Source: Methanofollis formosanus
GTDB taxonomy: Archaea > Halobacteriota > Methanomicrobia > Methanomicrobiales > Methanofollaceae
Direction: 5' to 3'
Assembly: GCF_019633745.1 (NCBI RefSeq)
Contig: NZ_CP037968.1
Location: forward strand, 248,001 to 312,000
DNA length: 64,000 nt
The notes below the pieces were generated by a model. It was not told the origin of the DNA. It made no database searches and saw nothing but the letters and a program-made list of their open reading frames with translations. The translations under genes and the position numbers were made by a program. This document shows, piece by piece, positions 16,912 through 30,857 of the stretch (the stretch's first letter is position 1; every line of letters starts with the position of its first letter).

Positions 16912-17184
16912 TCAGATCCGGTGCATTTTCGTAAAGATGTCCTCGCGCTGGCACCGGATCCTGACCCCGATCTCATCGCCGAGCGCCTCGAGTTCATTGA
17001 CCATCTCGCCGAAGGGTTTGGTTGACCTGCCGGTGTCGACGATCATCATCATATTGAAGTAACCCTGCACGATGGTCTGGGAGATGTCCTCGACATTCAC
17101 CTGGTTCTCCGCGAGATAGGTGCAGACCTTCGCAATGATCCCGACGGTGTCTCTGCCCACGACCGTGATGATGGTTTTTTTCAT
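16912..17184 (-). CDS. ACT-domain protein, UPF0237
   Basis: A 90-residue single ACT domain starting [43 protein letters not shown], the classic beta-alpha-beta with VGxDxxGIIA. ACT domains bind amino acids or related small molecules and regulate partners; this subfamily (UPF0237, GcvR-like) is regularly coupled to UPF0210, which follows 11 bp later. The start ATG 17184 is set by the domain; the open frame upstream has no family similarity. Confidence 0.93.
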
Positions 17185-17274
17185 GCCCTGGCACATCCTG
17201 GTAATACATTGGTGTTCTCTCAAGATTAATTTCGTCGCAGAGGAAACACCGGGCAGGTCTGAGACGATCGCTTC

Positions 17275-17560
17275 CGGAAGATCAGATTTATTTTTTCGGT
17301 CGAGTCTCGAGCCCATGCACAGGACGATCGCGCTCAACTTCATCTGCACGCTCCTCTCCGCCGGATGCCTCTCCGGTACACCGGGCTCATCGGCGAGAAG
17401 AACCCGCAGATCCCGGCAGGCAATGCGACGCCCCCGCACCGGCCGGTCGGGAGCACCGAGTTCGTCCCCCCATGACCTGGTGAAGGGCTACCTGAACGGA
17501 CGGTCCTGCTGTAGACGCAGAGATCCCGGGGCGCTCGCCCGAACCGGAAGGGGGGACCGC
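17275..17560 (+). pseudogene. decayed copy of the bicupin lipoprotein gene
   Basis: From the promoter string GATCAGATTTAT through ATG 17315 the DNA matches the gene at 1641. The signal-peptide region (MHRTIALNFICTLLSAGCLS) is nearly identical. The text then jumps, with a frame change, to the equivalents of YTGLIGE..IPA, then GNATPPHR.VG.TEFV, then the VKGYxN segment near the gene's end, with large internal deletions and a stop. The last clear match is near 17500, with weaker similarity to about 17560. It is a relic of a second lipoprotein gene, truncated by deletion and frameshift. Confidence 0.85.
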
Positions 17561-17639
17561 GTCTGCCATGGCCTGCGATTCGGTTCCGCTGCCCGGGACA
17601 CCGTCCCGGATCTTTGTTTGAGACCCCTGGGACAAACCC

Positions 17640-17830
17640 ACAATTATGAAAATATTGAGCATATATTCATTATATATTCCATATCGACAAATTTTCAAGA
17701 TAAAAATAGAAAAGAATATAATATTGCCATCCTTATTGGGGGATCATACCTGATATGGAGCGTTCCATCCCGGCGCGGACCGTACCGTGCCGCACCGTCT
17801 CCAGATCTCATCGGTAACGGAGTGAAATCG
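17640..17830 (+). promoter_or_regulatory. AT-rich promoter and leader of the surface-protein operon
   Basis: A sharply AT-rich island (17640-17735) with TATA-like ATTATATATTCC (about 17668-17679) and AATATAATATT (about 17714-17724) precedes the S-layer-type operon. An untranslated leader of roughly 100-140 nt follows, ending in a Shine-Dalgarno-like CGGAGTGA nine bases before ATG 17831. Long AT-rich promoters with leaders are common for highly expressed archaeal surface proteins. Confidence 0.6.
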
Positions 17831-20647
17831 ATGAAAAAACCCCCCTTCAACCATGTTATTATTGTCTTTCTGCTTATTGCGGCCCTGCTGATCATGCCGG
17901 CCGCGGCGAGGACCGTCGCAGAGGGAGATCTCATCTTCGACTATGAGACCGACCTCGACCTCACCGCCATCGCAGCGGACGGCGACAGACTGGTACAGTA
18001 CACCGACGACGATCCCGGCAAGGTTCAGGTCTACGTTATCCCGATCCCCCAGGCGGCATCTCTCGACCTGACGGCGATCGACCTGCAGGGCCATTACGGC
18101 ACCTACTACCTCGTCTCCGGCGGTGCCGCGACCGGCAAGCGCGTCTACGTCCGTGAACCGACCGTAACGCTCGACGTGGTCCTGGAGTATGACCACTCGT
18201 CCTCGATCGACGGGATGAAGGTCTCACCCCGGACCCCGATTGCCTTCAAGTTCGTCGCCCCCCAGGTCGCACTCTCCTCCCTGGACGCCACGGTAAAGGT
18301 CGAGATCACCAAACCCAACGGGGCGAAGACGTTCGTCATCGGGGACCGATACCTCACGAACCACGCCCTGAACAGATCGTTGACATATATCGGTGCCATC
18401 GACCTCTTCGGGCTTGAAGAAGGCACCTATACCGCTCAGGCAACGTGGCAGAGCCCCCATAGCTTCGCAAACTATGCCGCCGACTCCAACACGGTGAACT
18501 TCACGGTCGGCACCTTCCCCTTCGGGATCGAGTCCAACAAGGAGCGCCTTGTCAGGGGCAACTCCTTTGCCGTGACCCTCGCCGGCGAACCGAAAGCGGC
18601 GTACTTCCTGTATGTCAGGGACGCAGCCATCCCACCCGACGGGTACCCCCTCATCAAACCCGGCCAACCGGGCGTCACCCTGATGGCGACGGAATTCACC
18701 GGCGCCCCCGACCCGGCAGCAAGCCAGATCGCAAATCGTGAGCGTGCATACGGGTACGGTCCCTATGCGCCCGACACCGCCGCCGTCGTGACCACCACCT
18801 CCGCCGGCACCCGGACCCTCGAGTTCTCGACGACGGCCGCCACCGACGATCGGACCTTCACGATCAAGGTCGTCGACCCCTCAGACGCCACCAGGTCCGA
18901 CGAGGTCACGGTCACCGTCGAGCAGGGCGAGGTCACCATAACCGCCGGAGGGGCGGGCACCTCTTATCCGGGAGAGGAGATCGCACTCTCCGGCACCAAC
19001 ACCGACAGCGACACAGTCTACCTCTTCATGACCGGCCCGAACCTCGACAAGAACGGCGTGCCGCTCGACAATCTCTCGGCATCGGCGGCGAACGGTGCCT
19101 ACCTCACGGTGGACGTGCAGGCCGACGACACCTGGGAATACTGCTGGGACACCGGGATGTACCCCGACGCTCTCCCCCCCGGCATCTACACCCTGTACGC
19201 CGCCAGTTCCTTTGTGGACGGGAGCGGCAGATATGTCTGCGCTGGAGACCTGGGAGACGTGAAATACGACTCCGCTGTTGTTCGGGTCCAGGGCCCATCC
19301 GTATCGGTGCAGGCCTCGGCCACCCGCATCGCCGCAGGGGACGAGGTCTCCATCGAGGGTACGGCGACTGGATCCCCCGAAACCGTCGCCCTCTGGGCAT
19401 TCGGGGACGGCGGTGCCGTTGAGACCTACACGCTCCCGGTCCAGGGAGACGACACCTTCCTCCACACCTTCGAGCGGGACATGACCGCCCTGATGTACCC
19501 GGGCCAGCACTACCTCATCGTCCAGCACCCGATGACCGACGGCACCTATGCGGTCAGGCCCGACCCGACTGTTCCTCAGGGCGGGAGCGTCAGGGTCGTC
19601 AACGCCACCGGCGCCGTCCTCGACCTGAGCGGCATGACCGCCTCTGACGCCGCATTTACCGTGCTGGAAGCGATCCGGGAACCCGCATGCGACGACATCT
19701 GTGCCGGCGCCGCGTTTACCGTCCAGATCCCAGAGATCGTGATCGACGAGATCGGGGAGGTCGATATCGGTGAGAACGTCACGATCACGGGCACGACCAC
19801 CCTGGCCGCCGGCGACCATCTGGCGCTCACGGTCAGGTCGGCCTCAGTGAACCTCTCCAGCGTTCTTGAGGTTGCGGACGTGAACGGCGAACACCGCTGG
19901 TCCCATGTGATCAGCACCGTCGGCCTCGCACCCGGCGGCTATGAGGTCCAGGTCTCAGGGGTCGAGGTGGAGACTTCGGCCTCAGGGTCCTTCGTCGTCA
20001 GGGGAGCACCGACCCCCACCCTCTCGTTCACCCCGGCCACGGGCACGGCCTTCCTCTCCTCGACCACGGAGTACGCCGTCGTCCTGAACACCGCGCCGGA
20101 AGGACTCTCAGGATACAACCTCACCGTCTCCCTCGACGATCCCGCCGTGGCCGAGATCGTCGGAGTCTCCTTCCCCACCTGGAACGCCCTCTCCTCGACC
20201 GGCGCTCTGCCCGCCGACACCCTCTGGATCACGGGCGTCGACCTGAACGACGAGGTCGCGGCCGGGGCCGCGGACGTCACCCTCTGCACCCTCACCATCA
20301 GGGGCACGGCGACCGGCACGACCGGGATCACCCTTGTCCCCACCAAAGTGGACACCGACTTCGGCGGCAGGTATGCACCCGAGACCGTCAAGGGAACCCT
20401 TGACGTGGTCACGGTCGTCCCGTTCCAGAGAGGGGACGGCAGTGCGTATCCGCCACCCACCGATCCGGACGGTGACGGGGTGTTCGAGGACCTCGACGGC
20501 AACGGCTGGACCGGGTTCAACGACGTGGTGCTCTACTTCAACGGGATGGACTTTATCGAGCACAACCAGCCCATCGATGCCTTCGACTACGACGGAAGCG
20601 GTTTCATCGGGTTCAACGATGTGGTCGGCCTCTTCGAGAGGATCTAG
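17831..20647 (+). CDS. DUF3821 S-layer-type protein with cohesin-like and dockerin-like domains
   Basis: A 938-residue secreted protein. The signal peptide ends MPAAA-RTVAEGD. A DUF3821-like domain follows (LIFDYETDLDLTAIAADGDRLVQY... to about residue 330), then several Ig-like repeats with VRGNSFAVTLAGEP and the GTNTDSDTVYLFMTGPNL motif (about 230-720). A cohesin-like domain (about 730-863) carries EGLSGYNLTVSLDDPAVAEIVGVSFPTW and VDTDFGGRYAPE. The C-terminus (875-938) has two calcium-loop segments, DLDGNGWTGFNDVVLYF and DYDGSGFIGFNDVVGLF, of archaeal dockerin type. There is no C-terminal membrane anchor. It is first of a four-gene operon; attachment through dockerin-cohesin binding to the proteins downstream is inferred. 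Confidence 0.9.
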   Translation: MKKPPFNHVIIVFLLIAALLIMPAAARTVAEGDLIFDYETDLDLTAIAADGDRLVQYTDDDPGKVQVYVIPIPQAASLDLTAIDLQGHYGTYYLVSGGAATGKRVYVREPTVTLDVVLEYDHSSSIDGMKVSPRTPIAFKFVAPQVALSSLDATVKVEITKPNGAKTFVIGDRYLTNHALNRSLTYIGAIDLFGLEEGTYTAQATWQSPHSFANYAADSNTVNFTVGTFPFGIESNKERLVRGNSFAVTLAGEPKAAYFLYVRDAAIPPDGYPLIKPGQPGVTLMATEFTGAPDPAASQIANRERAYGYGPYAPDTAAVVTTTSAGTRTLEFSTTAATDDRTFTIKVVDPSDATRSDEVTVTVEQGEVTITAGGAGTSYPGEEIALSGTNTDSDTVYLFMTGPNLDKNGVPLDNLSASAANGAYLTVDVQADDTWEYCWDTGMYPDALPPGIYTLYAASSFVDGSGRYVCAGDLGDVKYDSAVVRVQGPSVSVQASATRIAAGDEVSIEGTATGSPETVALWAFGDGGAVETYTLPVQGDDTFLHTFERDMTALMYPGQHYLIVQHPMTDGTYAVRPDPTVPQGGSVRVVNATGAVLDLSGMTASDAAFTVLEAIREPACDDICAGAAFTVQIPEIVIDEIGEVDIGENVTITGTTTLAAGDHLALTVRSASVNLSSVLEVADVNGEHRWSHVISTVGLAPGGYEVQVSGVEVETSASGSFVVRGAPTPTLSFTPATGTAFLSSTTEYAVVLNTAPEGLSGYNLTVSLDDPAVAEIVGVSFPTWNALSSTGALPADTLWITGVDLNDEVAAGAADVTLCTLTIRGTATGTTGITLVPTKVDTDFGGRYAPETVKGTLDVVTVVPFQRGDGSAYPPPTDPDGDGVFEDLDGNGWTGFNDVVLYFNGMDFIEHNQPIDAFDYDGSGFIGFNDVVGLFERI

Positions 20648-20656
20648 GTGATTTCC

Positions 20657-23518
20657 ATGGACGTGAAAAAATTCTTGACAGGCGGCTGCGTGGTTGCTCT
20701 CGTCGTCGTGCTGACCCTCTCGGCGATCGCCATGCCGGTGTCCGCACGGACGGTCGCAAGCGGCGACACTGTCTTTGATTATGAGGAGGGGCTGGACCTC
20801 TCTTCCTTCGTTATGAACGGCGACCTGTTCGCACAATATCAGTACGATGACGTATCCTACGGCCAGGAATATGCTTTCAGAGTGGATAATGCTGCAGATC
20901 TCGACCTGGTCCAGATCGACCTGGCGGGCCACTACGGCACCTACTACCTCCACCAGAACTCGGCGCCGACCGTCGAGAAGATCTACATCAGGGATCCGTC
21001 GGTCTCGCTGGACGCCGTGCTCGATGTGGACAGGAGCGCCTCGATCGACGGCGGCACTGTCTCCAGAAACAGCAGGATCGCCTTTGTGCTCGATGCCCCC
21101 GAGGTCGGCACCTTCCTGCCGACGGCCACCGTGAGGATCAAACTCACCACACCGGACGGTGCGACCACCACGCAGATCGCAGGTACCAGTCTCACCGGGA
21201 TCGCACTGGACTGCCCGAAGGTGTACGTGACCGGCCTCGACGTCGGCGAGATGGAGGACGGCACCTACACCGCCCGGGCTGAGTGGGAGAGCCCCCGCGG
21301 CTTCAACGACTATGCCGACAATTCGAACATCGTGACCTTCAAGGTCGCCACCGTCGGCACGACGATCGAGACCGACAGGGAACGCGTGATACGGGGCAAC
21401 CCCTTTGTGGTCCGCATCACCGGAGACGCGAAGACCTGCTATAACCTCTACATCGAGGACGCCGGGGACGCCGCGTACCCGTTCATCTCCCCGGCCCAAC
21501 CCGGGGTCATAATGACGGAAGGCGCCTTCTCCGGCGCCGCCGACGCGGCCGCCGACACCAGGGCAAATGATGAACGCGCCTGTGCCGGGGACATCTATGT
21601 CTCCGGTACGGCGGCGACGGTCGCCACCGATGCAACCGGCACGCGGGTGATCGAGTTCGCGACCAACGCCTCCACCAGCGACACCGTCTACACGCTCACG
21701 GTCGTCAACACCGGCGACGCCACGGCCGCCGACAGCGTGCAGGTCACCGTCGAGAAGGGCAAGGTCACCCTCGCTGCAAAAGGGACGTCCCATTCTGTCG
21801 GCGACGAGATCGTCTTCACGGGCACCAACACCGACAGCGACGACGTCTACCTCTTCCTGACCGGGCCGAACCTCGGCGACGGGAGGGGTGTCAGTCCGAA
21901 TGACGTCACCGGGATGGCGTCGTGGGGCCACTATGCTTGCCGGTGCGTCGAGTCGGACGGCACCTGGGAATACCGCTGGGCCTCCCCGTGCTGCGGCGCG
22001 GTCCTCAGCGCCGGCACCTATACGCTCTATGCGGCGGGTACGTGCACCGATGCAGACGGATATTGGGTCGATGCCGGCCATCTCGATGGCGTCATCTATG
22101 ACGCTTGCTCTTTCGAACTCAAAGACCCCACCCTTGTCGCCGGGACATCCGGTGAAGAGGTAGCACAGGGCGATTGCTTCACGATCACCGGCACGGCGAC
22201 CGGTTCTCCGGACTGTGTCCTGGTGTGGATGCTCGGGAACAACTACAATCTCCTGGGATATACCGCAACCGTCGGTGAGGACGGCACCTTCACGTTCATT
22301 GTTGAACGGGCCGATACCGCCTATCTGAGCCCGGGCAACTACTCGGTGATCGTCCAGCACCCGATGAAAGACGGGATGTTCAACGTCCGCCCTGCCACCC
22401 AGGTTGAGATCGAGGAGGCAATGGCCACCGGGAGGCTCCATAACCCGACATATTTCGTCATCCGTGACGCCGTCGGCAACCTCATCGACCTCGGCAAACT
22501 CTCGGCCTCCGGGAATGTGGCCGCCCTCGTCAACGCCCTCGACTCACCGAACTGTGACGACATCCATGCCGACTGCGTCGTCACCATCGAAGAACCGCGG
22601 ATCTCCGTCGACGAGATCGGCGAGCGGCCGGTCGGCGACCGCTTCGTCATCACCGGCACGACGAACCTTGCAGAAGGGAACGTCCTCTACGTCGACGTCG
22701 CCGCCGCAAACTCTTCCGTCGCCTCGGGCACGGCGACGGTGGTCGGAGGAGAGGACGGCGGGAACGAGTGGTCGTTTGAGATCGACACCTCGGCGTTCGC
22801 GCCCGGCACCTACACCGTCTGCGTGGAGTCCGTGAACATCGACGTGCAGCAGACCGCCACCTTCACCGTCAGCGGTTCGGTCCCCTGCACTCTCCGGCTC
22901 AGGCCCGGGAACAGCACCGTCGCCGTCGGCGGGACCGAGACGCTCTCGGTTGTCCTGGACCGTGCACCACAGGGACTCTCCGGGTTTGAGATCACCGTCG
23001 ACCTGACCGAGACCGGGGCCGCCGAGATCGTGAAGGTCGACCTCCCCGCATGGGCCGGCCTCGCAAAGACGGGGGACCTGCCCGCCGACACTCTCACGAT
23101 CCGGGCCGCCGACCTGAACGACATGGTCACGCCGGGAGCGTGCGAGGTCACGCTCTGCACCCTCTCCGTCCGCGGCGACGCCGCAGGGAGCACCGGCATC
23201 GCCATCTCGCCGCGGACCGTCGAGAGCGACGCCTGGAGCAGGTATGCCCCGCAGACAGAGGACGGCCTCCTGGAGGTCATCGCCATCCACGCCTTCCCGC
23301 ACCCGGAAGGAGGGTTCTATCCCATCCCGACCGACCCGGACGGGGACGGGAGGTATGAAGACCTTGACGGCAACGGCTGGACCGGGTTCAACGACGTGGT
23401 GCTGTACTTCAACGGGATGACGTTCATCGAGAAGAGCCAGCCTTGCGGCGCCTTTGACTATGATACAAGCGGGTTTATCGGTTTCAACGACGTCGTCGAA
23501 CTCTTCAGGTCGATCTGA
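20657..23518 (+). CDS. DUF3821 S-layer-type protein, tandem paralogue
   Basis: A 953-residue paralogue of the preceding protein with the same order: signal peptide (ending MPVSA), DUF3821-like start (RTVASGDTVFDYEEGLDLSSFVMNGD), Ig-like repeats with the shared GTNTDSDDVYLFLTGPNL block, and a cohesin-like domain (about 741-876, QGLSGFEITVDLTETGAAEIVKVDLPAW). Dockerin-type loops close it (891-953, DLDGNGWTGFNDVVLYF / DTSGFIGFNDVVELF). It is richer in cysteine than its partner (CRCVESDG, SPCCGAV, PNCDDIHADCVV), suggesting disulfides. It starts 10 bp after the first gene with GGTGAT as ribosome site; an in-frame GTG at 20648 is an alternative start. Confidence 0.9.
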   Translation: MDVKKFLTGGCVVALVVVLTLSAIAMPVSARTVASGDTVFDYEEGLDLSSFVMNGDLFAQYQYDDVSYGQEYAFRVDNAADLDLVQIDLAGHYGTYYLHQNSAPTVEKIYIRDPSVSLDAVLDVDRSASIDGGTVSRNSRIAFVLDAPEVGTFLPTATVRIKLTTPDGATTTQIAGTSLTGIALDCPKVYVTGLDVGEMEDGTYTARAEWESPRGFNDYADNSNIVTFKVATVGTTIETDRERVIRGNPFVVRITGDAKTCYNLYIEDAGDAAYPFISPAQPGVIMTEGAFSGAADAAADTRANDERACAGDIYVSGTAATVATDATGTRVIEFATNASTSDTVYTLTVVNTGDATAADSVQVTVEKGKVTLAAKGTSHSVGDEIVFTGTNTDSDDVYLFLTGPNLGDGRGVSPNDVTGMASWGHYACRCVESDGTWEYRWASPCCGAVLSAGTYTLYAAGTCTDADGYWVDAGHLDGVIYDACSFELKDPTLVAGTSGEEVAQGDCFTITGTATGSPDCVLVWMLGNNYNLLGYTATVGEDGTFTFIVERADTAYLSPGNYSVIVQHPMKDGMFNVRPATQVEIEEAMATGRLHNPTYFVIRDAVGNLIDLGKLSASGNVAALVNALDSPNCDDIHADCVVTIEEPRISVDEIGERPVGDRFVITGTTNLAEGNVLYVDVAAANSSVASGTATVVGGEDGGNEWSFEIDTSAFAPGTYTVCVESVNIDVQQTATFTVSGSVPCTLRLRPGNSTVAVGGTETLSVVLDRAPQGLSGFEITVDLTETGAAEIVKVDLPAWAGLAKTGDLPADTLTIRAADLNDMVTPGACEVTLCTLSVRGDAAGSTGIAISPRTVESDAWSRYAPQTEDGLLEVIAIHAFPHPEGGFYPIPTDPDGDGRYEDLDGNGWTGFNDVVLYFNGMTFIEKSQPCGAFDYDTSGFIGFNDVVELFRSI

Positions 23519-23528
23519 GGGAAGAACC

Positions 23529-24281
23529 ATGTGGTCGAGAACCATCGTTCTTATCCTTCTTTCGCTGGGGGTGTTCCTCGCCGTCCCGGCGAGCGCAGAA
23601 CCCGCCCTCGTCGTGGACGGCGACCTCTCGGGTGCCGGGATCGGCGTGCCGGTCCAGGTCTCGGTCAGCCTCAACGACGCGGCGAAGGGAGTCTCGGGTT
23701 ACAACATCAGCGTCTGCGTGGAGAACGGGGACGTGGCGGCAATCACCGCCGTCTCCTTCCCCTCCTGGGCGACGCTCCACTCCAACGGCACCCTGCCGTC
23801 CGCATGCACCTGGGCCTCGGGCGTAGACATCGGTCGGCAGGTGGAGGGGAGTGCGGATACCGTGGACCTGCTGACCGTTACGGTCACGCCGACCGCCGAG
23901 GGGACGACCGCCCTGGTCATCACCCCCGAAAAGATCGACGACGACACCGGGGGACGGTATGTGCTTGCGGTTGTGGAGCGCCGGTTGAGCGTGGGAGAAG
24001 AGGCTTCTTCCTCCGGGGACTCCGGGGATGATGAATGGGCGACGACAGCACCCGTCACCACGCCCCCGGCAACCGTGACCGAGACCCCGGGCGGCACCAC
24101 CGCCCCGGCCGAAACACCGCAGGAGACGGAGACGGTCGCCAGGACGCCGGCCACGGCCGCCGCCGCAACGACCTCTGTGCCAACAGCCACGACAGAGCAG
24201 GCGGCGGGCACCGATCAGGCTCTCCTGGTCGGTGCAGGCCTGGCCGTTGCCGGCATCGTCTTTTGCAGGAGGGAGCGATGA
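23529..24281 (+). CDS. membrane-anchored single-cohesin protein
   Basis: A 250-residue protein. The signal peptide ends PASA. One cohesin-like domain (about 20-152) carries AKGVSGYNISVCVENGDVAAITAVSFPSW and KIDDDTGGRYVL. A Thr/Pro/Ala-rich linker (about 155-225, likely O-glycosylated) follows. A C-terminal hydrophobic helix (LLVGAGLAVAGIVFC) ends in RRER. This is the layout of an anchoring cohesin: ectodomain, stalk, membrane anchor. The tail resembles archaeosortase-type signals only loosely. Its stop overlaps the start of the next gene by 4 bp (ATGA). Confidence 0.85.
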   Translation: MWSRTIVLILLSLGVFLAVPASAEPALVVDGDLSGAGIGVPVQVSVSLNDAAKGVSGYNISVCVENGDVAAITAVSFPSWATLHSNGTLPSACTWASGVDIGRQVEGSADTVDLLTVTVTPTAEGTTALVITPEKIDDDTGGRYVLAVVERRLSVGEEASSSGDSGDDEWATTAPVTTPPATVTETPGGTTAPAETPQETETVARTPATAAAATTSVPTATTEQAAGTDQALLVGAGLAVAGIVFCRRER

Positions 24282-26284
24282 CCCGCATCACCGGTCGGGC
24301 GGCCGTCGGAGCGCTGCTCCTTCTCTCGCTCCTCCTCGTCGCACCGGCATGCGCCGCGGCGCCGGTGGTCGGCATGAGCCCTGCCGAGGTGCAGGCGGAA
24401 TCAGGGGAGAACGCGACGGTCGCGGTCGTGATCGACACCCTCCCGCAGGGGCTGTCCGGATATGCGATCACCTTCGCGATCGACGACCCGGCGGTCGCCG
24501 GGATCGCCGGCGTGGAGTTCCCTGACTGGGCCCGGATGACGGCCGCCGGCCCTCTGCCGGCAGACGCCCTGGAAGTCAAGGTCGCGGACCTGGAGAATGC
24601 CGTCGGGGCGGGTGCGACCGACGTCACCCTCTGCACCCTCACTCTCAGGGGTGAGACCGCGGGCACGACCGCGCTTACGGTCACCGCGATGGCGGTGGAC
24701 GACGACGCGGGCGGGAGGTATGCGCCGCTCTCCGCGCCGGCGACGGTGGTCGTGGGCGGCGGGCCGACGACATCGGTCGCCATGGACCCGGCCAGCGCCA
24801 CCCTCCTCCCTGATCAGGTCGTCGAGGTCGCGGTGACGATGGACCGTGTGCCCGGGGGCCTCTCCGGCTATGAGATCACGGTGGCCTCGGACGATCCCGA
24901 CGTGGCGGTGATCGACGGGATCGTATTTCCGGCATGGGCCGGGATGACCGGGAACGGGACGGTGCCCGCGGGCTGCATCCAGGTGAAGGCCGCGGACCTG
25001 AACCATGAAGTCGGTGCGGGTGCGACCGATGTCACGCTCTGCACCCTCCGCCTCCGCGGGGTCGCGGCCGGGTCGGCGGAGATCGCGATCACCCACAAGC
25101 AGGTCGACGACGACGCCGGCGGGCGCTATGCTCCCGCTACCGGCGGGTGCCAGGTGACGGTCGCGCCCGCGGCAGATACTTCCCTTGAGATCGAACCCTC
25201 GGTCGCGGAGGTGGCGCCCGGCGAGACGACCACGGTCTCGGTGGTGATGGACACCGTGCCGCAGGGGCTGTCAGGGTATCTGTTCTCCTTCGAGGTCCGG
25301 GATCCGGCGATGGCCGAGATCGCCGCCGTCGCATTCCCGGAGTGGGCGCAGATGCAGACACACGACACCCTGCCCGCCGGTTCGGTCCGGGTGAAGGCCG
25401 CGGACCTGAACAATGCCGTACGCCCGGGTGACCGGAACGTCACCCTCTGCACTTTCACCCTCAAGGGCGGGGAGAAGGGCGTGACTGCCTGCGGGATCAC
25501 CGGGGCGAAGGTCGACGACGACGCGGGCGGGAGGTACGCGCCCGCCACCGGCACCGCCACGGTCCTGGTCGGCATCGAGAGACCGATAGCCTCGTTCACC
25601 GCCGATCCGGTCAAGGGCGTCGCACCCCTCGCGGTGACCTTCACCGACGTCTCGTCCGGCGATATCACCGCCCGGCTCTGGGACTTCGGCGACGGGGTAA
25701 CCGCGACCGCCAGGACTGTCACGCACACCTACGCGACGGCCGGCACCTACACCCCCACCCTGACGGTGAGCGGTCCGGGCGGAACCGACACCTCCGGCGG
25801 CACGATCACGGTGAGCGGCACGGGTACCTCCGCCCGGTTTTCCGCCGACGTCACCTCGGGCGCCGCTCCCCTCACCGTGCACTTCACGGATCAATCCACA
25901 GGCGCCCCGACGAACTGGCTCTGGACCTTCGGCGACGATGCCACCTCCACCAAACAAAACCCCACCCACACCTACACCGCACCCGGCAACTACACCGTGA
26001 CCCTCTCGGTCAACGGCGGCGAGGAGACCTGCACGAAGGCCGCTTACATCACGGTCACGCCGCTCCTCTACGGCGACGCGAACGACAACGGCGTGGTCGA
26101 CCAGGCCGACACGCTCAGGGTACTGAAAGAGGTCGTCGGCATCACGGCAGAACCCGCGCCCGGGACCGAACAGTTCCAGAAGACCGACGTCCACCGGAAC
26201 GGCGTGATCGAGGTGGGCGACGCCATGTTCATCGCGCAGTACAATGTGGGGCTGCGGGACGCGTGGTTTGCGTTGAACGGATAA
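24278..26284 (+). CDS. scaffoldin-like protein: three cohesins, two PKDs, dockerin
   Basis: A 668-residue secreted protein. The signal peptide ends PACAA. Three cohesin-like domains follow at about residues 27-162, 163-297 and 298-434, each with (Q/G)GLSGYxxxxxxxDPxxAxIxxVxFPxW, VTLCTLxLRG and VDDDAGGRYAP. Two PKD domains follow (434-517 and 518-596; WDFGDG and WTFGDD motifs). A dockerin-like end (603-668) has GDANDNGVVDQADTLRVLK and TDVHRNGVIEVGDAMFIAQ. There is no membrane anchor. It could bind three dockerin-bearing partners and itself dock on the single-cohesin protein encoded just upstream. This is inferred from architecture; no binding specificity can be read from sequence. Confidence 0.9.
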   Translation: MTRITGRAAVGALLLLSLLLVAPACAAAPVVGMSPAEVQAESGENATVAVVIDTLPQGLSGYAITFAIDDPAVAGIAGVEFPDWARMTAAGPLPADALEVKVADLENAVGAGATDVTLCTLTLRGETAGTTALTVTAMAVDDDAGGRYAPLSAPATVVVGGGPTTSVAMDPASATLLPDQVVEVAVTMDRVPGGLSGYEITVASDDPDVAVIDGIVFPAWAGMTGNGTVPAGCIQVKAADLNHEVGAGATDVTLCTLRLRGVAAGSAEIAITHKQVDDDAGGRYAPATGGCQVTVAPAADTSLEIEPSVAEVAPGETTTVSVVMDTVPQGLSGYLFSFEVRDPAMAEIAAVAFPEWAQMQTHDTLPAGSVRVKAADLNNAVRPGDRNVTLCTFTLKGGEKGVTACGITGAKVDDDAGGRYAPATGTATVLVGIERPIASFTADPVKGVAPLAVTFTDVSSGDITARLWDFGDGVTATARTVTHTYATAGTYTPTLTVSGPGGTDTSGGTITVSGTGTSARFSADVTSGAAPLTVHFTDQSTGAPTNWLWTFGDDATSTKQNPTHTYTAPGNYTVTLSVNGGEETCTKAAYITVTPLLYGDANDNGVVDQADTLRVLKEVVGITAEPAPGTEQFQKTDVHRNGVIEVGDAMFIAQYNVGLRDAWFALNG

Positions 26285-26350: not shown

Positions 26351-26863
26351 TCACTCCGTCTCTCTCCACCCATCGATCCTCCGTTCGCACTCCTCGCCCG
26401 GCAGCCAGCGCCCGTTCTGCCGCATCGTCTCGATCGCCCCGGCCGCCCTGCTCGGCGTCACGATCTCGCCGGCGACGAGGAGATCCATGAGCCAGAGGGT
26501 GCCGTGGAGCACAACTCCTTCTTCCCGTGCGGTTTTTCGCAGCGTGCCGTCCCCGGTGAGAAGGACGGCCCCGCTATGGCGTGCGAGGACCATCACCGAG
26601 ATGTCCTCCATGGAAAGAGCAGGATAGTTCTTCCTGAGTTCAAGCATCTCGAGGACCTGCTCGCCGGGAAGTTCCCGGATCTCGAGCCCAAGACAGAGCA
26701 GGTCCGTGAGCGGGATGGTCCTGACCTCATGGGCCACGATGTCGGTGGTCAGGAAGACACATTCAAGGGAGAAGAGATCGTGCAGGACTCCCCCGGCGAA
26801 GAGATCAAAGAGTACGTTTGCATCGACGGCGCAGGTCGGGGGGATGCCCTGCGTCCGCCGCAC
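26351..26863 (-). CDS. PIN-domain nuclease
   Basis: A 170-residue PIN-like protein (DUF3368-like order). AVDANVLFDLFAG holds the first acidic residue, HEVRTI the second, and SMEDISVMVLARHSGAVLLTGDGTLRKTA the D..A...LLTGDGxLR motif with the remaining active-site acids. The start is GTG 26863, directly after the TAG of the XRE-ImmA gene (zero spacing), so the two are translationally coupled. PIN proteins are Mg-dependent RNases; this one is probably the effector partner of the upstream regulator/protease. It is convergent with the surface operon. Confidence 0.85.
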   Translation of the reverse strand: MRRTQGIPPTCAVDANVLFDLFAGGVLHDLFSLECVFLTTDIVAHEVRTIPLTDLLCLGLEIRELPGEQVLEMLELRKNYPALSMEDISVMVLARHSGAVLLTGDGTLRKTAREEGVVLHGTLWLMDLLVAGEIVTPSRAAGAIETMRQNGRWLPGEECERRIDGWRETE

Positions 26864-27898
26864 CTACTCAGCCCCTGCGGCGATCCCGGGCAGGTCGCCC
26901 CCGAAGAGTTCCCTGGCCCGCGACTGCGTGATCTTCTTCTCGTTCATGGCCCGCAGGATGAGCAGATGCATGTACGTGGGCGTTTCATGTCTCACCGCTT
27001 TCGCCGGCTCTTCTTTGCCGGCCTTCACCTGGTTCAGCCGGGCATCCAGCCCTTTTGCGGTCACCCCGGTGATGACCCCGAGGTCCAGGGCACGACGGAC
27101 CCAGGCCTTCATGCTCATCCCATACTTGTGCTTGAGGAGATAGAGTTCCCGGAGATCGATGGCATGGCGTTTCTTCCCCAGTTCTTTCCAGACCATCTCG
27201 CGGGGCACAAGAAATGCACCGGCAAACCGGTGCGCCGCCGCTTCTTCATCGAGTGGGTGCTCCACCTGGAGGAGCAGGTGCCCCAGTTCGTGGGCGCAGT
27301 TGTAGCGCTGGCGGTCCCCGCTCATGGCGGTGTTGACTGCGATCACCGGCGTCCTCTCGTCGTGGTAAAATGTCAGGGCGTCGAAGGAGTCGGGTGCCTC
27401 GATGGTCCCGACCTTGATCCCGTGCTGTTCCAGGACGTCCATCACGTTCTCGATGGGGTCGAGGCCAAGGTCCCATGCCTCGCGTAGCCGCGAGGCGACT
27501 GCTTCCACCTCCTCCATGCCGGATGCCCGGCACTCTTCGCGCGGCGGGAGGTCCAGATCGGCCCGGATGCCCGAGATCATCTCGATCTCCAGGTAGCGTT
27601 CCAGCCAGTCGGTCACCTTCGCGTGGATGATATGCTCCTCTTTTTTGGTGAGCGGTCGGTGGCACCGGTACTGCGGTGCTGAGAGGTGCACCGTGATCTG
27701 CCGGAAGAAGAAGTCGATATTGACGTCCAGGGCCTCACTGAGGCGGATGAGCGTACCCGAACCCGGGACCACCTCTCCTCGTTCGTACTTCGAAATCGCC
27801 GTCGCACTTACCCCAACTGCTGCACCGAGTTCCCGCTGGTTCATCCCGGCACTTCTTCGGGCCGCTTTTATCCGCTCGGCAATGCTCATATGGCTCAC
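26864..27898 (-). CDS. XRE-family regulator fused to ImmA/IrrE metallopeptidase
   Basis: A 344-residue protein. The N-terminal HTH_XRE (ERIKAARRSAGMNQRELGAAVGVSATAISKYERGEVVPGSGTLIRLSEAL, about 7-57) is followed by an ImmA/IrrE-type zinc protease domain with CAHELGHLLL (HELGH 203-207) and the downstream EEAAAHRFAGAFLVP holding the third ligand. Such proteins cleave a partner repressor or regulate a toxin. A 10-11-residue junction of YMHLLILRAMNEKKITQSRARELFG near the end suggests an added C-terminal helical domain. The PIN gene follows without a gap, and an 11-bp inverted repeat lies in its promoter. Confidence 0.92.
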   Translation of the reverse strand: MSHMSIAERIKAARRSAGMNQRELGAAVGVSATAISKYERGEVVPGSGTLIRLSEALDVNIDFFFRQITVHLSAPQYRCHRPLTKKEEHIIHAKVTDWLERYLEIEMISGIRADLDLPPREECRASGMEEVEAVASRLREAWDLGLDPIENVMDVLEQHGIKVGTIEAPDSFDALTFYHDERTPVIAVNTAMSGDRQRYNCAHELGHLLLQVEHPLDEEAAAHRFAGAFLVPREMVWKELGKKRHAIDLRELYLLKHKYGMSMKAWVRRALDLGVITGVTAKGLDARLNQVKAGKEEPAKAVRHETPTYMHLLILRAMNEKKITQSRARELFGGDLPGIAAGAE

Positions 27899-27922: not shown

Positions 27923-27960
27923 AGTTTACAAAAGTTCTGATGTTCGTGATTTTGTAAACT
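27923..27960. promoter_or_regulatory. operator for the XRE-ImmA/PIN operon
   Basis: AGTTTACAAAA (27923-27933) and TTTTGTAAACT (27950-27960) form a perfect 11-bp inverted repeat with a 16-bp spacer, 25-62 bp upstream of the XRE start at 27898. Position and symmetry fit an autoregulatory operator of a dimeric XRE repressor. Confidence 0.75.
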
Positions 27961-28119
27961 ATGCACCAGTCTCCATCACGATATTTGAAGATTGTGATCT
28001 TTTTCTACGGGGGGTTTTTCAGGTGGGACGGCGGGTTTCAGAGCCTTCTGATTCCATCTTTGAACGAATTGTCCTTCAAAGATCCTGATTCTCCCATGGT
28101 GTACATCTTCTCTTCCGAG

Positions 28120-29841
28120 TCAGGCATATTCGTCCCCATGCACCAGAGAGGCAAAAAACGGGACCATCTCTTCCCCCGAATGATCGGTGATCAGGACGAC
28201 GTTCGATGTTGAGGACGACACGGCTTTTATGATCCGTTCGAACACGAGGAGAGCCCCGTCGGTATCGAGGCCATGATCTTTGCAATAGTCCAGGCCAAGG
28301 AGATGGGCGGTCACAAAGTCGTGGTTCCCTTCGTTGAGCACCTGCTCAAGTTCGGTGAGGACCTTCATGTCCCGGTCCCAGACATGCCTGGTCTTGACGG
28401 AGACCACGGTGTCGGCAGCCGAACAATACTTGAACGATGAATAAAGACCTCCGATGAAGATGCTGCGGCAGTTCCATTTTCTGGGATACCGCCTGAAGAG
28501 TTTTGGTTCCTGGAAGAGCATCTTCATGCCTTCGTCGGTGTTCGTGCACTGCGCCTTCACCGGGACCGGGGGTGCACCGGTGATCCGGCGCATATCCTCA
28601 AGGGTCGCATTGTCGATCAGAAGAAGAACCAGCGGTGGGGGGATGCTCATGATATAGCCCGGGATGTCCTGCTGGGCCTCCAGTCTGACCATTCCTGTGC
28701 GTCCCGGTTGGTGATCTTTTTCCGCCTTGGGTGGATTGTTCAGACATTCTTTGAGGATGGCCTGCACCTGCTCCCTGCTCTTGCCGGTCTCAAGGAGTAA
28801 TCGGGCGGCATTTCTCTGATCTTCGTCGGTCATCTCCCGCCCTTTTCTCAGGAAGATCCCCGCCGACGATCTGCTCTTCTCATGGGTACTCTTCTCGCGA
28901 AGGATTGCACGCTCCGCCTGTTCTCTCCATCTTCCGAGAATCCGGTCGAATCGATCGTCGGTGCACGGGGTTACGTCCCAGGTCAGATCCCAGTCGCCGG
29001 CAACCTCAAGGGAGCGCGGGATCCGATCGATAAGGTTCTCTCTTTCAATTGACCGGAGATGTTCTCTCGCTTCGTCGAAGGTCTCCTCGTCCACCGGGAG
29101 TGACGGGGTGAGACGCCGGTAGTGGAGAGAGTAGGGCGCCCTGATGATCGGGACCGGGTCGAGGGAGTTGTCGTCAACCGGGATCCCCTGCGCCTGCAAC
29201 TCTTTCATGAGGCAATACTGGCAGATGCTCCGGTCGAAGAGTGTGGTGCCGGCATCTGCCGGGAGGCCCACGTTCATGTGCAATCCCTTGAGGGAAGAGA
29301 GTTTTACCGCGTAGTCGAGGCCAAGCGTCTCCATCGCTGCGGTGAGGGCGTGGAACGTCTCTTCAAGTCTGGGCTCGCTGGTGTCGATATCAAAGACCAT
29401 CGAGGAGTCCGACCAGAGGAGGTTGTGTTTGCAGGTGGTGTTCGGGCAGTTATCGCAGTCAAAAAGCCGGGTGCCAACCTTGCAGAATGTTTTTCTCACC
29501 TGTGTCCCGAGACCCGGGTCTTTGAAGGACGGGGCCGAGAAGCAGAGGTCGAAGGCTCCCCAGCGTTCCATGATATCGAGCAGATGATCTGGCGAGTGTA
29601 TCCGGGCGACACATTCCCTGACGTAATCGACCCCCTTCGCCGACCGTGCGTCATTCCGTTTGATCTGGTATTCCTTTGAGACGACCAGCTGCTGGAGCCC
29701 GATCATTTTGACGAGTTTATTGTCTACAAAAAAATAGGGGGTGATTTTGTCCAGTATCTCGTGGTAATATGCTATTGCCGGAGTGAGGTATTCTTCCATC
29801 ACGATATTGGAGGGTAAGACCTCGATGTGCCCGTTTTGCAT
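28120..29841 (-). CDS. archaeo-eukaryotic-primase protein with phosphatase-like C-terminal domain
   Basis: A 573-residue protein. Residues 110-300 carry archaeo-eukaryotic primase motifs. MVFDIDTS has the catalytic D151xD153, KLSSLKGLHMNV has the family's S..GxH (H188), and IIRAPYSLHYRRLTPSLPVD matches the third motif (R234, H240) as in PriS and LigD polymerase domains. A Cys group (C129xxC132, C137) may bind zinc. Residues about 395-570 differ: LVLLLIDNAT (D410), LLGLDYCKDHG (D518, H523) and NVVLITDHSGEE (D553, H554) resemble the metal ligands of the alkaline-phosphatase/PglZ superfamily. I infer a primase-polymerase fused to a phosphatase or phosphodiesterase fold. It stands apart from replication genes, beside XRE-ImmA/PIN, and may be a defence or repair protein. 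The start has GAGG close by and a TATA-like GATATACG. Confidence 0.75.
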   Translation of the reverse strand: MQNGHIEVLPSNIVMEEYLTPAIAYYHEILDKITPYFFVDNKLVKMIGLQQLVVSKEYQIKRNDARSAKGVDYVRECVARIHSPDHLLDIMERWGAFDLCFSAPSFKDPGLGTQVRKTFCKVGTRLFDCDNCPNTTCKHNLLWSDSSMVFDIDTSEPRLEETFHALTAAMETLGLDYAVKLSSLKGLHMNVGLPADAGTTLFDRSICQYCLMKELQAQGIPVDDNSLDPVPIIRAPYSLHYRRLTPSLPVDEETFDEAREHLRSIERENLIDRIPRSLEVAGDWDLTWDVTPCTDDRFDRILGRWREQAERAILREKSTHEKSRSSAGIFLRKGREMTDEDQRNAARLLLETGKSREQVQAILKECLNNPPKAEKDHQPGRTGMVRLEAQQDIPGYIMSIPPPLVLLLIDNATLEDMRRITGAPPVPVKAQCTNTDEGMKMLFQEPKLFRRYPRKWNCRSIFIGGLYSSFKYCSAADTVVSVKTRHVWDRDMKVLTELEQVLNEGNHDFVTAHLLGLDYCKDHGLDTDGALLVFERIIKAVSSSTSNVVLITDHSGEEMVPFFASLVHGDEYA

Positions 29842-30107
29842 TCCTCTATTCGTATATCAGTGATTTGTATGAATATTGTGGTATGATGGGGGATTTGTGT
29901 AAACCTGGAGGTGCGGAACGTGCCGGATAAGTACATACTGACGAGAGAGGAATCAGGTGCAGACCCATTTCCAGAATCCCACGGGAGGGCAAACCGCCGG
30001 TTGTGAAAAGAAAAAAAATTATAGATCGTTTTAATCAAGGGTTATTATGTCAGCGAAATAAATTCAAACCCGTCATATTTATCGGAATATTGATTCCATG
30101 ATATGAC

Positions 30108-30758
30108 ATGGTATCAAACGACGAACCCCGCCTCCTGTCATTGGAAGAGTACGCCAATCTCCCTGACATCATGGATCTCTCCGGAGATATTTCCCGGGAA
30201 GATGCTGAATGTCTCCTCACCAAACATGATATCCTCGGGCTGTCTGCTGGTGAACGGAAAGAATTACTCCTGAGCTTCTGGGACTATTACCATACGATCT
30301 CTGCAGCCGCGACCAGAGAATATCTCAAGGACAAAGTTCCCGAAGACATTGTAGTCGAGATCATTGAGAAAGAAGTGCCCGGAGACCCTGATAACCCGAG
30401 GTATGATTATCTGGTGTACCTCCATCGGCCCTTCGAGTACTGTGGTGCCAGGAACGAATACGTCCTTGAACGACTGAAAACGATCAATCCGGAGATCGAC
30501 GCAATTGTAGGCGACGAGGACGAACTTGAGCGATGTCCCTGTTGCGGGTATCATACTTTGGGTGAGAGAGGGATGTATGAGATCTGCGACGTCTGTTTCT
30601 GGGAGGACGACGGCGTGAACGAGGACCATGAATATAGCGGCCCCAATCATATGACACTGAGAGAAGGAAGAGAAAATTTCCGAAAATATGGTGCCTATGA
30701 TCAGCGCTCAATACACTCTGTCGACAGAGACGGGCCGCTCAAATACAAACGGTCCTGA
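30108..30758 (+). CDS. CPCC-family cysteine-rich protein
   Basis: A 216-residue protein. The C-terminal 75 residues match the cysteine-rich CPCC domain (PF14206): ERCPCCGYHTLGERGMYEICDVCFWEDDGVNEDHEYSGPNHMTLREGRENFRKYGA. This has four zinc-type Cys in CPCC...CDVC order and the F-W-E-D-D signature. The N-terminal 130 residues (LLSLEEYANLPDIMDLSGDISREDAECLL...) are helical and unassigned. CPCC proteins are often found in polymorphic-toxin immunity or defence contexts, in keeping with the adjacent island, but the role here is unknown. A TATA-like CATATTTATC lies about 30 nt upstream of ATG 30108. Confidence 0.85.
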   Translation: MVSNDEPRLLSLEEYANLPDIMDLSGDISREDAECLLTKHDILGLSAGERKELLLSFWDYYHTISAAATREYLKDKVPEDIVVEIIEKEVPGDPDNPRYDYLVYLHRPFEYCGARNEYVLERLKTINPEIDAIVGDEDELERCPCCGYHTLGERGMYEICDVCFWEDDGVNEDHEYSGPNHMTLREGRENFRKYGAYDQRSIHSVDRDGPLKYKRS

Positions 30759-30857
30759 CGGTTCCATAGTGTAACTGTGCTCAGCGCCGGCATGTGATCA
30801 TGCCACCGATTTTTTTCAGAATTCAGGTCGAACAGGACGGTCAGGCCGCCCACCCCA

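Follow-up and report, generated by a model that had tools for sequence, protein, structure and literature searches.

A divergent primase-polymerase with a candidate phosphoesterase-like C-terminal domain in a variable slot of the Methanofollis formosanus genome

The locus and its variable slot

The window, which is the whole stretch of 64,000 nucleotides of M. formosanus DNA analysed here, carries on its minus strand an uninterrupted open reading frame that starts with an ATG at 29841 and ends with a stop codon at 28120-28122. The product of 573 aa, hereafter the primase-polymerase, consists of an archaeo-eukaryotic primase (AEP) half, a helical linker and a C-terminal alpha/beta domain, the tail (Table 1). 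The gene is present in one copy in its own 2.97-Mb genome. Codon statistics preferred the gene's own frame in all seven of seven blocks of 82 codons, and GC3 was 0.73 in the N part, 0.65 in the linker and 0.72 in the C part. By both measures the N half and the tail are a single coding unit, so that the fusion is no product of a frameshift. A preliminary description, made from the letters of this DNA, had placed three primase motifs (DID at residues 151-153, SLKGLH at 183-188 and RAPYSLH at 234-240), a Cys cluster and the residues D410, D518/H523 and D553-H554 in this protein, and all of them were found at those positions.

Table 1. Coordinates of the features in the window and the evidence for each
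Feature	Coordinates	Strand	Evidence
Variable slot, other cargo in sister genome G015	28038..30850		G015 flank alignment, GC
Whole gene, AEP primase-polymerase with C-terminal alpha/beta domain	28120..29841	-	573 aa
AEP fold, residues 9-276 (predicted)	29014..29817	-	AF2 model with distant AEP rows, fold matches, hhalign
Cys/His cluster C120, C129, C132, C137, H139	29425..29484	-	sequence; immediately before motif I
AEP motif I, D151-I-D153, catalytic metal	29383..29391	-	invariant in 15-row alignment
AEP motif II, SSLKGLH 182-188; H188 nucleotide binding expected	29278..29298	-	sequence alignment/profile
AEP motif III, third catalytic Asp D223 through R234-APYSLH240	29122..29175	-	D223 invariant
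Helical linker, residues 296-368	28738..28956	-	predicted helices 296-328, 339-351, 356-368
C-terminal alpha/beta domain, residues 385-573, candidate AP-superfamily (PglZ-like) metallo-phosphoesterase	28123..28689	-	predicted strand/helix alternation, ordered-motif test
D410, candidate first metal ligand, end of strand 405-409	28612..28614	-	model, motif scan
T433-N-T435, candidate nucleophile/metal ligand, N-terminus of helix 435-442	28537..28545	-	MAFFT, motif scan
D518...H523, candidate second metal site, after strand 509-514	28273..28290	-	model; not chosen by motif scan
D553-H554, candidate DH metal motif, end of strand 549-553	28180..28185	-	model, motif scan
CPCC-domain protein, Cys-rich, 216 aa, divergent neighbour in slot	30108..30758	+	PF14206 E 8e-26
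XRE-ImmA protein, RmrA-like antitoxin, outside variable slot	26864..27898	-	PADLOC RmrA E 7e-52; PF06114, PF01381
PIN-domain protein, candidate toxin paired with XRE-ImmA	26351..26863	-	PF01850 E 3.5e-5

The flanks of this region are collinear and 92-95% identical in the sister genome G015, where the alignment stops at 28037 and resumes at 30851, and 2.8 kb of the window are exchanged there for about 4.5 kb (G015:C1:446846-451320, L048). The GC content is mostly 0.48-0.58 over the primase-polymerase gene and its divergent neighbour, against about 0.65 around them. The slot is bounded by the XRE-ImmA and PIN genes on one side and by a CLC-type channel gene on the other. The CPCC gene adjoins the CLC gene, and the genome G062 has a decayed 3' remnant of the CPCC gene at the same place (L049 1249-1596), without the primase gene. 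In G015 the replacing DNA has genes for PDC-M11A (E 1e-212) and a PDC-M11B-like protein, a candidate antiviral system; most PDC systems are candidates yet to be validated (PMC12988326). A 128-aa ASCH-like gene, recognised by eye, also lies in the G015 slot. PADLOC gave no match for the primase-polymerase protein, and it is by its location that the protein may be linked to defence. Elsewhere in the window, three large proteins of surface type (1175, 956 and 749 aa as called) lie at 17120-26284 and share related repeated segments, and the ends of the first and the second are closely similar.

The XRE-ImmA and PIN genes lie about 0.2 kb downstream of the primase-polymerase gene and form a separately conserved unit. 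An RmrA antitoxin adjoining a toxin-type gene is what the profile matches suggest, and the pair can be called RosmerTA-like in this sense. RosmerTA is antiviral, and ImmA-PIN pairings are on record (PMC10440598). A palindrome, GTTTACAAAA-N16-TTTTGTAAAC at 27924-27959, just upstream of the XRE-ImmA gene, lies inside the stretch that G015 conserves and is a likely operator. An operon partnership of the pair with the primase-polymerase was considered and rejected: because G015 keeps the pair without the primase gene, the two are neighbours and not partners. The preliminary description, which took its hint of defence partly from this neighbourhood, overstated the link, as the two are not inherited together; the hint is strengthened in another way, by the candidate PDC-M11 that G015 has in this very slot.

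Further copies of the pair, or of its XRE-ImmA gene, adjoin a type IV restriction enzyme in G009 and an IS-like transposase, named by eye, in G003. A second XRE-ImmA/PIN pair, with 76% identical DNA, was seen in the same genome (G000:C1:397901-399514; L051 2898-4445). This second pair adjoins a protein of 871 aa without a Pfam family (L051 4847-7462, minus strand), whose N-terminal 330 residues resemble AEPs (hhalign 83%) and which has a P-loop-like GNSGKGKS; it is possibly the primase-helicase of a provirus. A sequence similar to the 871-aa protein was also noted in G009 (L146 2-2416). Since the other copies adjoin a restriction enzyme, a transposase and an AEP-like protein, XRE-ImmA/PIN marks variable, conflict-related sites.

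The primase-polymerase half and its distribution

The distribution of the primase-polymerase was found to be extremely narrow. Searches of the order's other 231 genomes gave nothing above chance, and 393 genomes of the phylum gave no relative save the distant L002. Nor did 238 genomes around G330, from a second class of this phylum, or 4 genomes around G206 yield a relative, and tblastn of phages and plasmids gave noise only (E 0.5-1). Peptide-pattern scans of the genome and viral contig collections with parts of the protein found nothing, and a pattern scan of viral contigs with the L002 protein likewise found nothing; three of the alignments behind these scans used hand-made X rows with chosen motifs, which served only to steer the choice of peptides. 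No full-length relative was present in any collection searched. As the pattern scans demand an exact short-peptide match, bacterial or metagenomic relatives are possible. The absence from the other genomes of the order rules out a housekeeping (cellular) primase, which the preliminary description had named as a finding that would refute it.

Residues of about 9-276 form an AEP fold, an assignment that is well supported by the sequence profile and the predicted fold. Across the 15 aligned rows, D151, D153, G186 and D223 do not vary, and H188 is nearly invariant. Residues of the D151/D153/D223/H188 type are those expected for AEP catalysis. Archaeal AEPs were gathered by family search and an HMM was built from distant mobile-type members; it ranked the primase-polymerase protein at the top with E 4e-4 against 2000 shuffles, of which the best reached E 1.1. 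The alignment of the protein to AEPs by hhalign gave 90% and E 1.8e-6 over residues 82-255. In Pfam, a sub-threshold match to LigD_Prim-Pol (PF21686) was seen over residues 146-207, at 12.7-15.6 bits for a cut-off of 27.4. The closest protein by sequence is L002, from a genome of the same phylum and only distantly related, which PF21686 clearly marks as a LigD-type Prim-Pol (E 3.5e-23); RAPYSLHY of motif III is identical in the LigD-type Prim-Pol L002/L100. The latter protein (G244:C27), of 362 aa, has itself an unusual domain order, as a winged-helix-like region stands at its N-terminus (a weak match to HTH_45).

An AF2 model from the single sequence had a pLDDT of 34 and was discarded, and the model made with distant AEP rows had a pLDDT mostly of 70-93 over residues 147-270. 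Fold searches took in residues 9-276 only and returned primases; they are not informative on the tail. The top VIA match was PriS of Sulfolobus (5of3; Z 14.2 over 209 residues, query 13-276); as AEP rows were part of the AF2 input, the fold matches are not fully independent evidence. In VIA, matches over about the same residues were also obtained with LigD PolDom and the Methanocella NHEJ polymerase (Z 12.6) and with the S-2L PrimPol (Z 9.7), and human Pri1 and Prim-PolC were further best structural matches. The best Foldseek matches were LigD PolDom (E 1.9e-5). The predicted fold and the sequence tests agree, and the primase-polymerase claim of the preliminary description is supported by both. 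By sequence, the catalytic core falls between the polymerase domains of LigD and the mobile-element primases of archaea, and the AEP half adds a new and very divergent member to a known superfamily.

The Cys/His cluster is an insertion relative to the other AEP rows of the alignment, and its residues suggest a possible, metal-binding zinc knuckle. The helical linker, judged by eye, resembles the PriCT/PriL-like tails of mobile primases (L106/L113). An AMP phosphorylase assignment for residues 317-460 was rejected as chance, at 10-18 bits for a cut-off of 535 bits; these weak matches run from the linker into the beginning of the tail.

The C-terminal domain

The preliminary description proposed that the tail resembles the alkaline-phosphatase (AP) superfamily and PglZ, and suggested a profile search of the two halves of the protein. 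Such a search placed the AEP half, as given above, and matched nothing for the tail. No family of Pfam, NCBIfam, PADLOC or PHROGs matches residues 385-573, and hmmscan gave no match to PF08665, PF01663 or PF01676 in the tail. Comparison by hhalign with alignments of PglZ, PDE (Phosphodiest) and ApgM sequences taken from relatives' genomes stayed at chance, a test of low power given small alignments and a single orphan query. The HMMER ranks of the tail for the AP blocks went from 8th to 174th of about 2600.

On the other side stand the predicted strand placement and the order of the motifs. The tail was modelled with low confidence (pLDDT 30-66), with no relatives in the alignment for that region, and since none covered it the model is unbiased. 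The predicted order is strand 405-409, a helix, helix 435-442, strand 462, strand 479, helix 493-503, strand 509-514, a helix, helix 527-542 and strand 549-553. In the model D410 and D553-H554 stand at strand ends, T435 starts a helix and D518/H523 follow a strand. The ordered-motif score was derived from PglZ, ApgM and Phosphodiest members; for four motifs the tail reached z 4.6, with none of 3000 shuffles and 3 of 1074 windows of other real ORFs attaining the score, the blocks having been picked after the C-terminus was seen. Three AP blocks align in order in the scan, and the D518/H523 block was not selected. Unaided MAFFT set the D410, TNT and TDH (553) stretches opposite the corresponding PglZ motifs, and T433-N-T435 lines up with the PglZ 'PTLTSISRRSLF' motif in both MAFFT and the motif scan. 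In a mixed alignment, MAFFT set the PglZ rows on the AEP half instead; this alignment was left out of the modelling, as shifting the rows to the tail by hand would have been circular. The usual last metal histidine of the AP superfamily is not evident, the sole option being H568, 5 residues from the end.

Strand placement, motif order and ordered-motif score favour the AP-type reading, which is plausible, over PIN, the sole alternative given a score, and the odds that the tail is an AP/PglZ-type domain are roughly even. The proposal of the preliminary description thus keeps its footing in the motif score, the strand placement and MAFFT, and finds none in the family and profile searches.

Interpretation and comparison with known systems

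Our leading explanation, to which we give a probability of about 0.4, is a horizontally acquired AEP primase-polymerase with a phosphoesterase tail of the AP/PglZ kind, used in conflict with invading DNA. We presume this use to be the most likely one because the gene occupies a cargo slot of defence type; the protein, LigD-like in its polymerase, would probably serve either defence or a mobile element. The AEP half would bind a DNA end, a gap or a single strand and add nucleotides via D151, D153, D223 and H188, and the Cys knuckle may help it. The tail would most likely be a compact two-metal phosphoesterase of the AP/PglZ kind that, by analogy with LigD, could trim or hydrolyse phosphodiesters or terminal phosphates in cis (D410, T433/T435, D518/H523, D553/H554). 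The protein may then serve host defence, or may be a former mobile-element enzyme. The data show the open frame, the AEP core with its catalytic residues, the lack of the gene in relatives and the exchange of cargo at the slot; that the tail has an AP-type fold, as well as metal binding, activity and a defence role, is what we infer here. A bolder form, in which one polypeptide both synthesises nucleic acid and cleaves it, or what is made from it, with a PglZ-type two-metal phosphodiesterase, as a one-gene antiviral effector, would make a new architecture of polymerase and nuclease, an AEP that carries such a nuclease itself, but seems unlikely.

It is also possible, though we hold it with some doubt, that the protein serves as replication primase for a mobile element, either integrated or decayed, and that its tail is an accessory domain, for DNA binding, helicase loading or another task, without phosphoesterase activity. 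AEPs outside PriS are nearly always replication proteins of mobile elements and have varied C-terminal domains (PMC5862659). The helices of residues 296-368 look like PriCT/PriL tails, the second XRE-ImmA-PIN copy adjoins the 871-aa protein with its AEP-matching start, and the tail is without a profile match, all of which would fit such a primase. Against it, the slot is small, 2.8 kb with two genes, and neither an integrase or helicase ORF in it nor a tRNA or a clear att-like repeat at it was seen; the AP-motif score of the tail also lies above the shuffles.

The tail might instead have another Rossmann-like or nuclease fold (NYN, TOPRIM or PIN-like) that came to its AP-like residues by convergence, since several alpha/beta nuclease folds share a strand-Asp followed by a strand-TDH, and 'LITDHSGEEMVPF' can be read by eye as an NYN 'SGDxDF' or a TOPRIM 'DxD' ending. 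We consider this improbable, as the PIN motif pair was at chance (z 0.66, 471 of 2000 shuffles, PIN from three sequences) and the two-motif AP score reached z 4.7, and no Pfam model of such a fold matches the tail. An NHEJ polymerase of the LigD type, serving the archaeon itself, would agree with the weak PF21686 match, with LigD PolDom as the best Foldseek match and with the LigD-type nearest relative, but it is very hard to sustain: in the genome search the primase-polymerase scored 13.3 bits with PF21686, under the cut-off, vs 227-309 bits for canonical archaeal members. No canonical LigD-type Prim-Pol/PolDom was found elsewhere in its genome by family search, and no ligase neighbour was seen.

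Among known systems, the primase-polymerase shares with LigD PolDom the AEP core, the same three motifs and a RAPYSLH-like motif III. In LigD, the 3'-phosphoesterase (PE) and PolDom jointly remodel termini (PMC3898472), a pairing of polymerase and phosphoesterase analogous to the one proposed here. The protein differs from LigD in its PF21686 score below the cut-off, its extra Cys cluster, and the lack of a LigD PE Pfam match and of a ligase, and its tail is of a different kind from PE. Archaeal and eukaryotic PriS (Pri1) gave the highest VIA score, whereas the present gene is absent from the other genomes of the order, its Cys cluster precedes motif I and it has an extra tail. With the archaeal mobile primases (PrimPol-PV1 and the PriS-like L106, L112 and L113) it shares the AEP core followed by PriCT-like helices and the patchy distribution, but no helicase or winged-helix domain was recognised in it.

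Characterised AEPs are without proofreading (PMC5862659), and the same source mentions no phosphatase fusion to an AEP. In the literature searched, a combination of AEP/Prim-Pol with PglZ or the alkaline phosphatase superfamily was not described, which is weak evidence. PglZ domains were lately shown to be metal-dependent nucleases (PMC12205998). The tail has a predicted strand-Asp, T-x-T helix start and strand-DH in the same order as PglZ (PF08665) of BREX and related systems, with similar spacing and a similar domain size. It differs in showing no significant profile similarity, in the last metal histidine that is not evident, in the primase fusion and in that no BREX genes were recognised nearby.

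If the tail is an active enzyme of the AP/PglZ type, the architecture is new; otherwise, the protein is an orphan among the familiar primases of mobile kind. A natural AEP-PglZ fusion, if true, would be a new way of coupling synthesis to cleavage and a small system for PglZ-type activity outside BREX. The neighbouring RmrA-like XRE-ImmA protein and its PIN partner resemble RosmerTA as a separate unit, which is retained where the primase gene is absent. A testable lead comes from the site itself: beside a RosmerTA-like pair, the slot contains PDC-M11 in one of the sister genomes and the primase-polymerase in another.
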